Positions 36,458 through 41,881 of a stretch of 41,881 bases of DNA are shown one piece after another. A program made the position numbers and the translations under genes. The stretch is from positions 1 to 41,881 of the forward strand of contig WBUQ01000020.1 of assembly GCA_008933635.1 (NCBI GenBank), in the 5' to 3' direction. Source of the stretch: Desulfobulbaceae bacterium. GTDB taxonomy: Bacteria > Desulfobacterota > Desulfobulbia > Desulfobulbales > Desulfocapsaceae. Under the pieces are notes generated by a model. It saw nothing but the letters and a program-made list of their open reading frames with translations. It had not been told where the DNA came from and made no database searches. Every line of letters starts with the position of its first letter. Position 1 is the stretch's first letter.

Positions 36458-37333
36458 TCAGCTTGCCATTTTCAGCCCTTGTTCAATCTTACGGGCGATC
36501 ACTCGGGGGCCCTGATAAATCCTGAAAATCTGGCGCGGACATTTGGCGACACAGACTTCTTCACAGCTTGGCCCATAGGCGATACATGCCTTATGGTCGA
36601 TTTTGACCTTGTTGTTCTCGTAGGTTACTGCCTTGGCCGGGCATACCTTGACGCAGAGTTTGCAACCGATGCAACCTACTTCGCAGACCGCCTTGACCTT
36701 GTTCCCTGAATCCTGGGTCGAGCAGGGAACATACACCCGGGCCTTCAGTGTCTGGATTTCGATGATCTTCTTGGGACAGCCACGCACGCAGGCACCGCAA
36801 CTGACGCATTTGTCGGGATCGACAATAGGGAAGTCATCAACCATGGTAATCGCATCAAACGGGCAGATTGAAGCACACTCGCCAAGTCCGATACAGGCAT
36901 ACTGGCAGTTGGACGGTCCGCCGAAGGCAAGGTTGGCAGCGGTGCATGTGGAAAAGCCGATGTAGCGGTGCTTTTGTGCGACTTGCCCCTCGATCCGTGA
37001 ACACCGGATGACAGCAATCTGATCTTCCACCGCGGTCAGTTTCTTGCCAGTCAATTCGGCGACTACTGCCGCTACCTTTTCCTTGCCGGGAAAGCAGAGA
37101 TTGGGCGGGACATCGGGATCGGTAACAACGGCGATGGCGTACCCCTCACAGCCTGGATAACCGCACCCGCCACACTGGGCCAGGGGAAGAGATTCCAGGA
37201 CATGTTCTATCAAGGGATTGCTTTCGACAGCAAACTTGTGGGCGGCAATGGCAAGGCCGATACCAAAGAAAAGGCCAATACACCCCAATAGCACCACACC
37301 GCCTATTGCAATTTTTATCAATGCCGGATCCAT
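36458..37333 (-). CDS. rnfB: Rnf complex ferredoxin subunit RnfB
   Basis: Electron-entry subunit of the ion-translocating ferredoxin:NAD+ oxidoreductase. One N-terminal membrane anchor (about 6-28) is followed by the Rnf 4Fe-4S domain LAQCGGCGYPGCEGYA near 51-66, then a chain of ferredoxin motifs: CQYACIGLGECASICP, CVSCGACVRGCP, CEVGCIGCKLCVKVCP and a final CxnCxxxCxxxCP. At 291 aa it is of the extended type, with more clusters than E. coli RsxB (192 aa). It is the last gene of the operon, 48 bp after rnfA and just before a strong terminator. Confidence 0.97.
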   Translation of the reverse strand: MDPALIKIAIGGVVLLGCIGLFFGIGLAIAAHKFAVESNPLIEHVLESLPLAQCGGCGYPGCEGYAIAVVTDPDVPPNLCFPGKEKVAAVVAELTGKKLTAVEDQIAVIRCSRIEGQVAQKHRYIGFSTCTAANLAFGGPSNCQYACIGLGECASICPFDAITMVDDFPIVDPDKCVSCGACVRGCPKKIIEIQTLKARVYVPCSTQDSGNKVKAVCEVGCIGCKLCVKVCPAKAVTYENNKVKIDHKACIAYGPSCEEVCVAKCPRQIFRIYQGPRVIARKIEQGLKMAS

Positions 37334-37381
37334 AATCTTGTCACTCTCACTTCCATGCGTTGAGTATGCGGAAATCTCTGA

Positions 37382-38323
37382 TCAGAAGAGCTGCAGACCG
37401 GAGAAACCCAGAAATGCCATGGCAAACTGACCCGCGACGATAAAGGCGATCGGCAGGCCTTTGAAGGTCGTTGGGATGTTGGCCAGTTCCAGCCGCTCCC
37501 GCACCGAGCTCATCAGATACAGGGCCAGCAGAAAGCCACCGCCGGCACCAAACGCCAGCATGAAGGTCTCAAACACGCTGTAATTGTTGTTGGCCATGAT
37601 CAGCGGTACGGCGATAATGACACAGTTGGCGATAACCAGTACCAGGTAAACTCCGAAGGAGTTGAACAGGATCGGGTTGACCTTGCGGAGGATGGTGTCA
37701 ACCGCCTGTACCGTCAGCGACACGAGGCCGATGAAGACGACGATCTGCAGAAAATTGAGTCCATACGGAATGAGGATGAACTGGTAGAAGAACCAGCTCA
37801 TCAGCGCCGAAGCAACCATGACGATGGTAAATACCACGCCCATCCCCTTGGCGGTTGTTTTCCTTTTCGAAGTGCCGAAGAAAACGCACAGGCCAAGGTA
37901 TTTGGTGAACACGAAGTTGTTGACCAGCAGTGCGGAAATCAAAATCGACAAGAGATAGCCGATATACGACTTTGCCACCTTCAGGCTTTCAATTTCGGCG
38001 CCACCGGCATCACGAATCGACACGACATGGGTCTTGGCCGTATTGAGCGGTTCAGCGAACAGCAGGGACACGCTTCGACCATCGCCGGAGATTCCGACCT
38101 TCTGAACCTCAAGCCGGATATCCGGATCAGATTCCTCGAACACTGTATACATCCCTCCATCCTGCATCGTGGTCTTATCGACCGGAGCATGGTAGGTGAG
38201 GATGATTTCGTTCTCCGCCCCGAATTTCTGTCCACTCGCCAGTTCCGCAGCCTGGAGCAGGACCGGAGCCAGAATGAACAGCAGGACCGCGGTCCAGTAT
38301 GTGAAGTGTCTGCGTATCATCAT
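37382..38323 (-). CDS. rnfA: Rnf complex subunit RnfA with exported N-terminal domain
   Basis: Integral-membrane subunit of the Rnf complex, here 313 aa instead of the usual about 190. The RnfA core starts near residue 118 (YIGYLLSILISALLVNNFVF) and has six membrane helices, with TKYLGLCVFFG and FGAGGGFLLALYLMSSVRERL. The first 117 residues are extra: a signal peptide (about 11-25, LLFILAPVLLQA) and a small beta-rich domain resembling SbsA/Big-type Ig-like domains (TTMQDGGMYTV, GDGRSVSLLFAEPL, KTHVVSIRDAGG). ATG 38323 overlaps the rnfE stop (ATGA) and follows GGGGAAG, so the extension is genuinely in frame with the operon. Confidence 0.93.
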   Translation of the reverse strand: MMIRRHFTYWTAVLLFILAPVLLQAAELASGQKFGAENEIILTYHAPVDKTTMQDGGMYTVFEESDPDIRLEVQKVGISGDGRSVSLLFAEPLNTAKTHVVSIRDAGGAEIESLKVAKSYIGYLLSILISALLVNNFVFTKYLGLCVFFGTSKRKTTAKGMGVVFTIVMVASALMSWFFYQFILIPYGLNFLQIVVFIGLVSLTVQAVDTILRKVNPILFNSFGVYLVLVIANCVIIAVPLIMANNNYSVFETFMLAFGAGGGFLLALYLMSSVRERLELANIPTTFKGLPIAFIVAGQFAMAFLGFSGLQLF

Positions 38324-38937
38324 TTCTTCCCCTTCGCCTGTTTGTAGGCAAGCTCGATCCAATTGAAAAAGGCCATCATCAAGCCGACCACGAAGAACCC
38401 GGCACTGGGCAGGATGAAGAACAGGAGAGGTTTGAAACCAAGGACATCGTAACCGAGAATCGCCCCGGAACCGAGAAGCTCCCGGACAAGACCTATGACC
38501 ACCATGCCGACCAGAAAGCCGAGTCCCATGCCGAGGCCATCCCAGAAGGAGTCCTGCGCCGATTCCTTGCAGGCGAACATTTCCAGCCGCATGGTGATAA
38601 TGGCGAAGGCGACGATCAGCTTGACGAAAATGCCCATCTTGGCGTAGGCTTCAGGGAGATAGGCGGCCAGAGCCAGATCGATGACGGTAACCCAGGTGGC
38701 GATGGTAAGGGTGTAGGTGGGAATACGGATTCGCGGATGAATCTTGTTCTTGAACAGCGATATGGTGACGCTGGAAAAGACCTGGACGAAGAGAACCGCG
38801 ATGCCCAGCATCACGCCGTTTATCACCGTGGTCGAAATCCCGACGGCCGGACACATCGACAGGGCCAGCTTGAAGATCGGATTCTCACTGAGGATTCCGC
38901 GAGCGATCAACTGCATGCTTGATTTATCGTTTGCCAC
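38320..38937 (-). CDS. rnfE: Rnf complex subunit RnfE
   Basis: Six-helix membrane subunit paralogous to RnfA with inverted topology, 205 aa. Landmarks are ENPIFKLALSMCPAVGIST near 18-37, LFKNKIHPRIRIPTYTLTIA near 61-80, TMRLEMFACKESAQDSFWDG near 115-134, and LVRELLGSGAILGYD near 150. The conserved cysteines in MCPAV and FACKE are placed as in NqrD/RnfE, where they bind an Fe-S cluster with the paralogue (family knowledge). It lies between rnfG and rnfA; its stop overlaps the rnfA start. Confidence 0.97.
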   Translation of the reverse strand: MANDKSSMQLIARGILSENPIFKLALSMCPAVGISTTVINGVMLGIAVLFVQVFSSVTISLFKNKIHPRIRIPTYTLTIATWVTVIDLALAAYLPEAYAKMGIFVKLIVAFAIITMRLEMFACKESAQDSFWDGLGMGLGFLVGMVVIGLVRELLGSGAILGYDVLGFKPLLFFILPSAGFFVVGLMMAFFNWIELAYKQAKGKK

Positions 38938-38957
38938 GTGAACTTCCTCTCAAATGA

Positions 38958-39842
38958 TTAGAACGCAACCTCGATCTTCTGTTCCGCCAGGGCGGTATCC
39001 AGAATATTGAGGCGATAGGCAAATTTTTTGACGATGCTCTTGACGCCGTTGTTGACCGAACGGCTGGAAATGGTGGCACCGGTCAGGGCATAGATATCTT
39101 TATCCCCGTACTTTTTCAGAATCTTCGCCGCATCTTCCGCAGCAATATCGCCCTCCAGTGCCTGAAAATACTCATCAGGCAACGGCTCCTTGACTACATC
39201 AAGGTCCTTCAGTTGCTCAAATGTCTTCCCTTTGAACTGATTCCTGAAATAATCCTGCTCTATTTCCGCGCCAAGCCCCGGATCCTCCTCATGCTCGAGT
39301 ATTTCGAGACCAAGCAGGGTGAATTTCGGGTCGGTGGCCAGCATCACCCCGATAAAGGTCTTGAAACCGGTAAACTTGCCGTCGAGAAGATAGGCGATCC
39401 GCTCGCCATTGTTGGTGACGATGATGGTCTGGTCGGCGAATTTCGCATCCTTGCCCGCGCCGACGATCCCATTCACCACCTTGTCACGTTCCTCCTTCTC
39501 AAGGACCTTGGCTTCATCTACCTCCACGGATTTGTTGTCGATAACCTTTCCGGAAAGATCAAGGGTGAGGAAGATGAATCCCTCCTTCCCCGACAGCAGA
39601 TAACCGATGTACTGGCTCTGTTTATCGGAAACAATATAACGGTACACTTCGTGCAGAGCCATGCTGTCGGGAATCGGCTTGTCCGCCGAATACCCGAGCA
39701 GGGCATATCGAACCTTCTGTTCGTTGACGTGCTCGTTGTGCTTCTTGGCCTTGTTGGTGACGATGAAGGCTGAGCCCATGACCGTGGCGGCCAGGATACA
39801 GGAGACTGTCAGCCGGATTATGATAGTGAATATATCTTTCAT
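38958..39842 (-). CDS. rnfG: Rnf complex FMN subunit RnfG
   Basis: Membrane-anchored subunit with covalent FMN facing the periplasm. One N-terminal membrane helix (about 8-28), then the FMN-binding domain; the attachment motif is LTGATISS with Thr257 as acceptor. EHEEDPGLGAEI near 183-194 is diagnostic. At 294 aa it is longer than many RnfG (about 200), with the extra residues mainly in the region 45-150. The start codon lies inside the rnfD stop and GGAGG precedes it. An FMN transferase (ApbE) needed for attachment is not in this window. Confidence 0.96.
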   Translation of the reverse strand: MKDIFTIIIRLTVSCILAATVMGSAFIVTNKAKKHNEHVNEQKVRYALLGYSADKPIPDSMALHEVYRYIVSDKQSQYIGYLLSGKEGFIFLTLDLSGKVIDNKSVEVDEAKVLEKEERDKVVNGIVGAGKDAKFADQTIIVTNNGERIAYLLDGKFTGFKTFIGVMLATDPKFTLLGLEILEHEEDPGLGAEIEQDYFRNQFKGKTFEQLKDLDVVKEPLPDEYFQALEGDIAAEDAAKILKKYGDKDIYALTGATISSRSVNNGVKSIVKKFAYRLNILDTALAEQKIEVAF

Positions 39843-40891
39843 CGGCTACCTCCCTGGGGCGGAGCGAACCGCCGCGGCTTGAACCAGCCGTCGAGGACCG
39901 GGCTCAGCGGATTCATCAGCAGAATGGCGTAGCAGATGCCCTCAGGATATCCGCCCTTGAGCCGGATCATCACCGTCAGCGCGCCGATCCCGAAGCCATA
40001 GACCAGCTGCGAAACCTTGTTGGTCGGACAGGTCACATAATCGTTGGCCATGTAAAAGGCGCCAAGCAGGGCGCCACCGGTGAGGATAGCCAGCAGCGGA
40101 TCACCGCTGAAGTACGTCTCGCCGCCGAAGATCCAGGACAGCAGGGCGATTGTCCCCAGTACCGATACCGGAATATGCCAGGTAATATATCCCCTGTAGA
40201 TCAGATACAATCCGCCAAGGACAATGAGGAAGCCGGAAGTCTCACCGATGCAGCCGGGTCGCCATCCCATGAAAAAAGACCCGTAGAGGGAGGTTCCCGC
40301 ACCGAACATCTCGGTAAAGGCGGCCATGCCCTGTTCCTTGATGACCGCAAGCGGTGTGGCAGTCGACACGGCACTGACTCCTTCTCCGAGATAGGAAAAG
40401 ACAGCCATATCCTGAAGTGGCGGTAGCCACGCCGAGGTCATCGCTACCGGGAAAGTCGCCAGCAGGAAGGATCTGCCCAGCAGTGCCGGATTGAAGATGT
40501 TATAGCCGATGCCACCGAGGATGTGCTTGCCGATGTAGATCGCCATCACGGCCCCGAGTACTGGCAGCAGCGGCGATACCCCGGGCGGAATGACAAAAGC
40601 CAGCAGCATGCCGGTTATGACCGCGCTGCCGTCCCTGACCGTGACCCGCCGGCCGAGGAGTTTCTGACTGGCGGCCTCGACCGCCACGCAACTGGCGACC
40701 GAAACAGCGGTGATGAGCAGGACCTGGATACCAAAGACGAAGACAGACAGAAGCAGCGGCGGTATCAGGCAGGCCACGATGGTCCACATGATCTTTTCAA
40801 CCGATTCATGGCTCTTCACATGGGGAGAGATGGAGACCTTCCACTCTCGCAATGCGGGAGATGACTGGTTTTCTGGTGCTAGCGGTTCGAT
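39839..40891 (-). CDS. rnfD: Rnf complex subunit RnfD (putative ATC start)
   Basis: Membrane subunit of the Rnf complex with covalent FMN; about nine helices, FMN-attachment motif STATPLAV, the family N-terminal ISPHVKSHESVEKIMW and the C-terminal GGYPEGICYAILLMN. The start is unusual. No ATG or GTG lies in frame after the last upstream stop. A TTG at 40852 has no Shine-Dalgarno, whereas AAGGAG (40899-40904) lies exactly 7 nt before ATC at 40889-40891, giving 350 aa beginning (f)Met-Glu-Pro-Leu-Ala. I use the ATC as the likelier start; the TTG form would have 337 aa. Confidence 0.9.
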   Translation of the reverse strand: MEPLAPENQSSPALREWKVSISPHVKSHESVEKIMWTIVACLIPPLLLSVFVFGIQVLLITAVSVASCVAVEAASQKLLGRRVTVRDGSAVITGMLLAFVIPPGVSPLLPVLGAVMAIYIGKHILGGIGYNIFNPALLGRSFLLATFPVAMTSAWLPPLQDMAVFSYLGEGVSAVSTATPLAVIKEQGMAAFTEMFGAGTSLYGSFFMGWRPGCIGETSGFLIVLGGLYLIYRGYITWHIPVSVLGTIALLSWIFGGETYFSGDPLLAILTGGALLGAFYMANDYVTCPTNKVSQLVYGFGIGALTVMIRLKGGYPEGICYAILLMNPLSPVLDGWFKPRRFAPPQGGSR

Positions 40892-40965
40892 GGCGTATCT
40901 CCTTCAGAAACGTTGTTCAAACTGGAGGTTCCGGGCGTGTCGGTAATCTGTTCCGGTAACCTCAT
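40879..40965 (-). CDS. Possible 28-aa leader ORF between rnfC and rnfD
   Basis: ATG 40965 opens a 28-codon frame (MRLPEQITDTPGTSS...) that ends in TAG 12 nt inside the proposed rnfD ATC start and contains rnfD's AAGGAG. A weak AAAGG precedes it. It could couple rnfC translation to rnfD or be chance. Confidence 0.2.
   Translation of the reverse strand: MRLPEQITDTPGTSSLNNVSEGDTPSNR
40899..40904 (-). promoter_or_regulatory. Shine-Dalgarno that decides the rnfD start
   Basis: AAGGAG on the minus strand, 7 nt before an ATC codon in the rnfD frame and 46 nt before the only alternative (TTG). Confidence 0.6.
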
Positions 40966-40977
40966 GACCTTTGATTC

Positions 40978-41881
40978 CTATCTCTTTGCCTTCATCTTGG
41001 CCAGACGGACAAATTGGACCAGGGGCCGCTTCGCCGGGCAGACGTAGGCGCAGCTGCCGCATTCAAAGCATTCGAACACTCCGAACTGGGCGGTGTCCTC
41101 AGGCCGGTTGGCCTCGACATAGATGCCGATTTCCTTCGGCTCAAGCCCCATCGGACAGGCTTCGAGACACCAGCCGCAGCGAATGCACTGGGAGTGCGGT
41201 GTTGTATCCACCTCGTCGTCGGCCAGGAAAAGCACCGCCGATGTCGTCTTGGTCACCGGAACATCGAGATTGGAGACCGCAAATCCCATCATCGGTCCCC
41301 CCATGATAACCTTCGCCAGATCGGGTTTCAGACCGCCAAGGTAATGAACGATATCGGAAACCCTGGTCCCGACCTTGACCAGCAGATTGGCCGGCCTGGC
41401 AATTCCCTTGCCGGCAATGGTGACAACCTTTTCGTAAAGCGGTTTGCCGAGGACCACCGCATCGCGGGTGGCTCTGGCCGTCGACACATTCTGCACCACG
41501 ACCCCGACCGCCGAGGGGAGGGCCATTGCCGGCACCTTGCGGCCGGTGATGGCCTGGATCAGCTGTTTCTCCGACCCCTGCGGGTATTTCACCTTCAGGG
41601 CCTGCACCGTCACGGAATACTCGGCGGTCGAACCGGCACGGGCCGCCTCGGTCATCGCCAGGATCGCGTCCGGTTTATTGCTCTCGATACCGATCTGGCA
41701 TTGCCTGATGCCGAGGATCTTCAGGATAATTTTCGCCCCCTCGACAATATCAGCAGCGTATTCCAGCATCTGCCGGTGATCTGAGGTGATATACGGCTCG
41801 CATTCCGCTCCGTTTAGCAGCAGGGTATCGATAGGGTTGTCGGGAGGAGGGCTCAACTTGACATGGGTCGGAAAACCGGCA
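40978..41881 (-). CDS. rnfC: Rnf complex subunit RnfC, partial (5' end beyond window)
   Basis: C-terminal two thirds of the NADH-interacting membrane-associated subunit. The frame stays open to the window edge, so the N terminus, including the Gly-rich NADH site, is missing. Visible are the FPTHVKLSPP region at the edge (family-typical), LLLNGAECEPYITSDH, the SLBB-like middle, IMGGPMMGFAV, and two 4Fe-4S motifs CIRCGWCLEACP and CFECGSCAYVCP. The protein ends soon after the second cluster, so it is the short form without the long repeat tail of E. coli RsxC. It is the first visible gene of the rnfCDGEAB operon. Confidence 0.96.
   Translation of the reverse strand, partial: AGFPTHVKLSPPPDNPIDTLLLNGAECEPYITSDHRQMLEYAADIVEGAKIILKILGIRQCQIGIESNKPDAILAMTEAARAGSTAEYSVTVQALKVKYPQGSEKQLIQAITGRKVPAMALPSAVGVVVQNVSTARATRDAVVLGKPLYEKVVTIAGKGIARPANLLVKVGTRVSDIVHYLGGLKPDLAKVIMGGPMMGFAVSNLDVPVTKTTSAVLFLADDEVDTTPHSQCIRCGWCLEACPMGLEPKEIGIYVEANRPEDTAQFGVFECFECGSCAYVCPAKRPLVQFVRLAKMKAKR

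Follow-up and report, generated by a model that had tools for sequence, protein, structure and literature searches.

Closest described systems

The membrane [2Fe-2S] cluster of the A. woodii Rnf complex (PDB 9eri-9erl) is held by RnfA C25 and C113 and by RnfE C25 and C108, according to the available text of PMC11889175. The same text reports that RnfA T110G and RnfE L103G and V106G abolished autotrophic growth, that N107A allowed partial growth, that T111G was without phenotype at 20 mM NaCl and that RnfG touches the cavity of RnfA/E. RnfG moves back and forth between RnfA/E and RnfD (accessible passages of PMC12174285 and PMC11889175), and RnfA and RnfE are described in part of the text of PMC12174285, a review, as having inverted topology. 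A figure legend in this review calls the membrane-core cofactors of Rnf and Nqr strictly conserved (PMC12174285).

Two further systems are relevant. Na+-NQR (NqrC, NqrD, NqrE) has a homologous core and, in the available part of the same review, is without RnfB (PMC12174285). The Tol2-type Rnf2 of D. toluolica is a second, unusual Rnf of sulfate reducers, with an RnfB of about 700 aa that carries NAD sites and an RnfC without an NADH domain, as described in the accessible portion of PMC5109826. The legend to S9 Fig of one survey lists Rnf as absent from the Desulfobulbales by BLASTP (PMC10553843).

Here we describe an rnf locus from this order that differs from all of these. The reading that we prefer, tentatively and at slightly short of an even chance, is that of a remodelled, separate Rnf type (rnfCDGEAB) in which an Ig domain at the periplasmic mouth of RnfA/E docks an enlarged RnfG and in which the membrane cluster and the ion site have been rebuilt.

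An rnf operon with an extended rnfA

The window is a stretch of 41,881 nucleotides from a Desulfobulbaceae draft genome assembly (4.5 Mb, 240 contigs). At its end, on the minus strand, the gene order is rnfC, rnfD, rnfG, rnfE, rnfA, rnfB (Table 1). The start codon of rnfA (ATG, 38323-38321) overlaps the rnfE stop codon (TGA, 38322-38320) as ATGA and is preceded by GAAGGGGAA; the rnfA stop codon is TGA at 37384-37382. An earlier note on this DNA, which gave no strand, had claimed an N-terminal extension of RnfA and had fixed the start by the overlap and the upstream sequence. The extension is real, the gene lies on the minus strand and both features of the start are present. A mis-called start is ruled out by the ATGA overlap and by the length and signal peptide, which are conserved among relatives.

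Table 1. Features of the rnf locus in the window
Feature	Position	Strand	Evidence
rnfC, 5' end cut by contig edge	40978..41856	minus	matches TIGR01945 from position 148
rnfD, 337 aa, flavin motif TATP	39839..40852	minus	profile match
rnfG, 294 aa, enlarged periplasmic part, flavin motif TGAT at residues 254-257	38958..39842	minus	
rnfE, 205 aa, GTG start	38320..38937	minus	profile matches
RnfE Cys29 = A. woodii Cys25, ligand kept	38851..38853	minus	alignment
RnfE Lys106 = A. woodii Pro102, helix 4 before break	38620..38622	minus	alignment
RnfE Phe111 = A. woodii Asn107	38605..38607	minus	alignment
RnfE Ala112 = A. woodii Cys108 ([2Fe-2S] ligand)	38602..38604	minus	HMMER alignment to 9eri
rnfA, extended, 313 aa	37382..38323	minus	ORF list, PF02508 match
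RnfA putative signal peptide, residues 1-26	38246..38323	minus	sequence, modelled helix 2-26, relatives' signal sequences/lipoboxes; cleavage place by eye
RnfA predicted Ig-like domain, residues 27-118, conserved DPDI at 66-69	37970..38245	minus	seven modelled strands, SbsC superposition
RnfA six-helix core, residues 121-313, kept cluster ligands Cys146 and Cys234	37385..37963	minus	PF02508
rnfB, 291 aa, CGGCGYPGC motif with Cys54	36458..37333	minus	profile matches

From N- to C-terminus, RnfA is laid out as a probable signal peptide, a predicted Ig-like domain and a six-helix core, and is considerably longer than A. woodii RnfA (191 aa). The note's claim of an intact six-helix core behind the extension is borne out by the Pfam Rnf-Nqr model (PF02508), which matches residues 125-310 with 148.6 bits against a cut-off of 23.8. 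TIGR01943 is the best NCBIfam model, yet its 187.5 bits fall below the curated cut-off of 229.3. The core also matches RnfA chains in the PDB (35-43% identity to 9eri_A over the aligned parts), and both cluster cysteines are present.

The subunits are the same as in A. woodii. All six genes are found in the order C-D-G-E-A-B in 20/20 relatives fetched, and the set in the window is likewise together. A decaying operon is disfavoured by this and by the RnfA core, which is approximately 85% identical among 26 members. An alignment of 21 members shows that the flavin threonine motifs (RnfG TGAT, RnfD TATP) and the CGGCG motif of RnfB are conserved. A full-length RnfC of the same type (locus L035) has RnfC_N, Complex1_51K and Fer4 matches. 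Like this type, Tol2-type Rnf2 is an unusual Rnf of sulfate reducers, but identity with it is ruled out by the length of RnfB and the Complex1_51K match of RnfC, as far as the available part of PMC5109826 describes Rnf2.

The two families most often seen among the neighbouring genes are ApbE, in 35/51 stretches, and DHO_dh, in 29/51 (Pfam names from L035; the 51 stretches include some contigs twice). The DHO_dh-family gene (PF01180) adjoins rnfC upstream, for example at L035:2573-3553; the contig of the window ends short of this position, and no ApbE gene was seen after rnfB in the window. One deep-branch member has a nitroreductase-family gene (PF00881) between rnfA and rnfB (L158:6596-7168). 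In another locus, a single open frame spans rnfE and rnfA (L109:676-2289), which is either an RnfE-RnfA fusion or a sequencing error (MAG contig, coverage 1.3).

Distribution of the extended type

When 58 genomes were searched with the whole RnfA, 34 gave a match. Full-length extended RnfA is present in 26/58, that of the window included: 22/37 genomes of the window's family and 4/21 of other families in the order. One more genome (G011) has the extended RnfA in two pieces. A pattern scan of public genomes, using clade-specific words that would miss a deeper branch, found 138 stretches encoding a relative. Among the best 80 of these 138, the match reaches into the extension in 80/80; 78 have a readable rnfE. 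All 80 are labelled as deltaproteobacterial save a few MAGs that bear the names Pseudomonadota, Proteobacteria or Myxococcales. The 51 pattern matches in viral contigs included no relative.

RnfE was used to search the phylum and matched 138/395 genomes at E 1e-30. Among the matches listed, and leaving the window aside, identity falls into levels of 72-76% (6 rows), 56-61% (6 rows) and 46% or less. All 12 rows of the upper two levels were fetched and carry the RnfA extension.

The earlier note had left room for the extension being common to every RnfA of the order and already described. As far as tested this is not so: seven fetched genomes of the window's family that have the extended type (L055-L060, L063) also carry an ordinary short RnfA. 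These seven canonical loci indicate that two Rnf types coexist there. The canonical paralogues of the family share the core fold and subunit families with the clade and differ in having a short RnfA, 36-40% identical to that of the window in the eight genomes listed, and an RnfE with NC. No description of an Rnf with extended RnfA or with the RnfE alanine discussed below, and no biochemistry of this clade, was found among the literature matches listed, in a coverage with subscription journals mostly outside it.

A tree of the RnfA core and RnfE, with the Ala/Cys column described below removed, was made from 76 rows (36 from the clade and 40 controls drawn at random). The clade falls on one branch with an SH-aLRT of 100 and a stem length of 1.63 changes per column; some branches are long enough to draw a warning from the tree program, most of them within the controls or where the Nqr-like rows attach. 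On this tree a single origin would be enough to account for the clade. Taken together, the sequence comparisons indicate that the extension is a trait of a distinct Rnf clade in the Desulfobulbales and other Thermodesulfobacteriota, and not a one-off. The window (36458-41856) and loci labelled Desulfoprunum (Desulfobulbales in the NCBI taxonomy) carry this divergent type of rnfCDGEAB. This places Rnf in an order that one survey, in its S9 Fig legend, gave as lacking it (PMC10553843).

The extension is predicted to be an Ig-like domain

An AlphaFold2 model based on 63 aligned members has seven strands at RnfA residues 29-116; block means of pLDDT are 84-93 over residues 31-120. The model is poor in its membrane region (pLDDT below 50 at 134-149, pTM 0.49). 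A folded domain, as the earlier note had claimed, is thus predicted. The domain was placed by Foldseek and by VIA-align superposition of the predicted model on known chains, and fitted best to SbsC (Z 13.0, rmsd 2.1 over 87) and Sap (Z 11.9, rmsd 1.5 over 78); the fit to CopC was lower (Z 8.3, rmsd 2.8 over 79). The model therefore predicts an S-layer-type seven-strand Ig sandwich of approximately 90 residues, of the S-layer/Big_5/CopC type. Although the fold appears to be shared with the S-layer Ig domains of SbsC and Sap and with CopC, these chains are only 14-18% identical to the extension, which differs from them in being fused to a redox membrane subunit.

The note had proposed a test of membership in the SbsA/Big Ig-like families. 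Big_5 (PF13205) matches 10/63 clade members at E 0.01 (best 2.2e-6), but not the window's own extension; the first 120 residues alone gave only SWM_repeat, at E 0.051, in Pfam.

Mean identity over the 26 members, the window included, is 48% for the extension and 85% for the core. In eight codon-level pairs, with synonymous sites near saturation in several, pN/pS lies at 0.12-0.38 in the domain, against 0.03-0.12 in the core. The Ig domain is under purifying selection. Its faster evolution also fits a passive spacer, and both the lower identity and the higher pN/pS agree with the domain being a structural or export device only, which would fix the N-out topology of RnfA or stabilize it and would have no catalytic part. 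We regard this explanation as doubtful. The domain is present in 97/97 scorable clade members, with P67, D68 and I69 invariant in the 63 aligned, and ordinary RnfA has no extension in 56/56 scored, yet RnfA and RnfE have inverted topology there too (PMC12174285, available text). An Ig domain that docks RnfG remains our preferred reading.

The domain is probably periplasmic

All 26 members, the window included, start with a hydrophobic stretch that by eye resembles a signal sequence. In a pattern search of 97 distinct members, 12 had a lipobox and 60 an AxA-like site; the other 25, the window among them, resemble signal peptides by eye. Residues 1-26 of the window's RnfA look like a signal peptide, although the cleavage site, LQAAE, misses the AxA pattern used. 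One lipobox (L128) is probably false, and one of the rows judged by eye (L140, LQGC) is probably a true one. The remaining 11 lipobox rows fall within L139-L154, a range of which three are labelled Desulfobacteraceae or Desulfobacterales.

By the positive-inside rule, positively charged loops lie on the cytoplasmic side of the membrane. The RnfA loops 1, 3 and 5 between helices contain 4, 2 and 1 Lys/Arg residues, respectively, and loops 2 and 4 contain none; loop 1, which follows helix 1 and reads SKRKTTAKG, has a strong positive charge. By this rule the N-terminus of RnfA is outside. The signal peptide, with a lipobox in one branch, and the positive loop after helix 1 thus support the note's proposal that the extension would lie in the periplasm.

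RnfE has lost a cluster ligand and residues of the proposed ion site are exchanged

We compared RnfE from 173 loci, 160 of them distinct. At the position of A. woodii C108, 98 have Ala and 62 have Cys, all 98 clade members being in the first group and all 62 others, which are controls from the window's phylum, in the second. The RnfA extension is present in 97/97 scorable Ala cases and in 0/56 scorable Cys cases. Three of the four RnfA/E cysteines of the membrane cluster thus remain, and the fourth, in RnfE, is replaced in the window by Ala112. The Cys of FACKE downstream of Ala112 was considered as a general substitute ligand and rejected, since several members of the clade have Ser or Gly there. 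Six rows set apart by eye as Nqr-like (NqrD-like) keep the cysteine at the RnfE position (6/6) and, in the rows scored, have no Ig domain. The window's genome has an NqrD/NqrE-like pair on another contig (L062), and there too the cluster cysteine is kept.

The surroundings of the cluster are also altered, with exchanges at residues of the Na+ site proposed for RnfA/E. In RnfE, P102 is K in 97/98 clade members (one Ala) and P in 56/56 canonical sequences; N107 is F in 98/98 and N in 56/56. In RnfA, P107 is V in 97/97 (P in 44/48 canonical), T110 is I in 91/97 with 3 Val and 3 Thr (T in 47/48), T111 is A in 91/97 (T in 48/48) and E88 is D in 97/97 (E in 48/48). A. woodii has the canonical residue at RnfE Cys108, Pro102 and Asn107 and at RnfA Thr110 and Pro107. 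RnfE R67 and E115 are common to A. woodii and the window and are kept in 98/98 clade members, as are RnfE C25 in 97/98 (one gap), RnfA Q85, N112 and C25 in 97/97 and RnfA C113 in 96/97 (the exception is L136).

The three ligands kept (RnfE C25, RnfA C25 and RnfA C113) and the strong conservation of the core would be expected if the RnfE change were harmless, with three cysteines and another ligand holding a normal [2Fe-2S] cluster in an ordinary Na+- or H+-pumping Rnf. This is improbable in our estimation, since the exchange is invariant and is accompanied by N107F, P102K, P107V, T110I and T111A, which suggests a rebuilt site rather than one neutral change. Additionally, T110G left A. woodii unable to grow, although the N107A mutant still grew in part and, at normal sodium, T111G was without phenotype (PMC11889175, available text). 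The clade is a natural counter-example to strict cofactor conservation, one ligand being gone.

RnfG is enlarged

From the RnfG membrane helix, placed by a hydrophobicity rule, to the TGAT motif the median distance is 259 residues among 93 clade members (range 102-274, with two outliers at 102 and 106) compared with 164 among 51 others (156-215). Clade RnfG thus gains approximately 95 periplasmic residues. In Foldseek, the best match to a model of clade RnfG (pLDDT 91.7) is NqrC (E 1.1e-8, TM 0.49/0.57), with a loose superposition (rmsd 9.0 over 285 columns). The greater size of RnfG may therefore be a likeness to NqrC and not a novelty.

Across the loci compared, the extension is accompanied by the loss of the RnfE ligand, the exchanges at the proposed ion site and the larger RnfG. 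These traits all lie on one stem branch; their linkage is one event and does not prove joint function.

A possible mechanism

In the remodelled Rnf that we tentatively favour, ferredoxin and NADH would remain the cytoplasmic partners. Attached where helix 1 of RnfA reaches the outer face, the Ig domain would form a rim around the periplasmic opening of RnfA/E; the role that we infer for it is that this rim docks the mobile, enlarged RnfG. Docking would allow electron transfer between the RnfG flavin and a modified centre with three cysteines. The site may have gained a new fourth ligand in addition to its three cysteines, may hold a different centre or may hold none.

Transporters are known in which a lysine replaces Na+. 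The lysine near the helix-4 break of RnfE could likewise stand in for a bound cation, which suggests that the ion site is changed. With Lys106 present and the Thr110 hydroxyl lost, Na+ would no longer be moved through RnfA/E as proposed for A. woodii, and proton coupling, or no coupling at the RnfA/E step, would be more likely than Na+ movement. The clade allows a test of whether coupling depends on the cluster in the membrane and on the sodium site proposed for RnfA/E.

Further remodelling can be imagined, and seems to us unlikely: a deep-branching Rnf in which the membrane [2Fe-2S] cluster would be replaced or lost, coupling would have switched to H+ in place of Na+ or been given up, the lysine acting as a built-in cation, and a periplasmic module of Ig domain and RnfG would redirect electrons, possibly to a periplasmic acceptor. 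Alternatively, the Ig domain could serve to dock a periplasmic partner from outside the complex, either a cytochrome or a lipoprotein, with the RnfA/E path cut or altered and electrons going to the periplasm and not back to NAD by the usual U-shaped path. The ligand lost in RnfE and the probable lipid anchor in one branch point this way, as does the predicted fold, the S-layer/CopC-type Ig being a common binding fold. We nevertheless consider a separate partner quite unlikely: RnfB and RnfC, the ferredoxin and NADH sides, are kept, and the two commonest neighbour families are ApbE and DHO_dh, although a cytochrome might be encoded elsewhere.

A probable selenocysteine in RnfB

The reading frame of rnfB in 11 clade loci (L139, L140, L143, L145-L150, L153, L154) contains a TGA in place of the codon for the first Cys of CGGCGxxGC, which corresponds to Cys54 in the window. 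The position of the TGA, exactly at this Cys, suggests that it probably encodes selenocysteine at an Fe-S ligand. Folding energy did not separate the loci as expected of a SECIS element (mean z -0.56 for the 11 UGA rows vs -1.09 for 87 Cys rows). GGCTTC follows the TGA in 10/11 rows (GGCTTT in L146), with an exact GAAGC partner found by eye in 8. SelB was above the cut-off in 10/10 genomes tested, four of which have the rnfB TGA.
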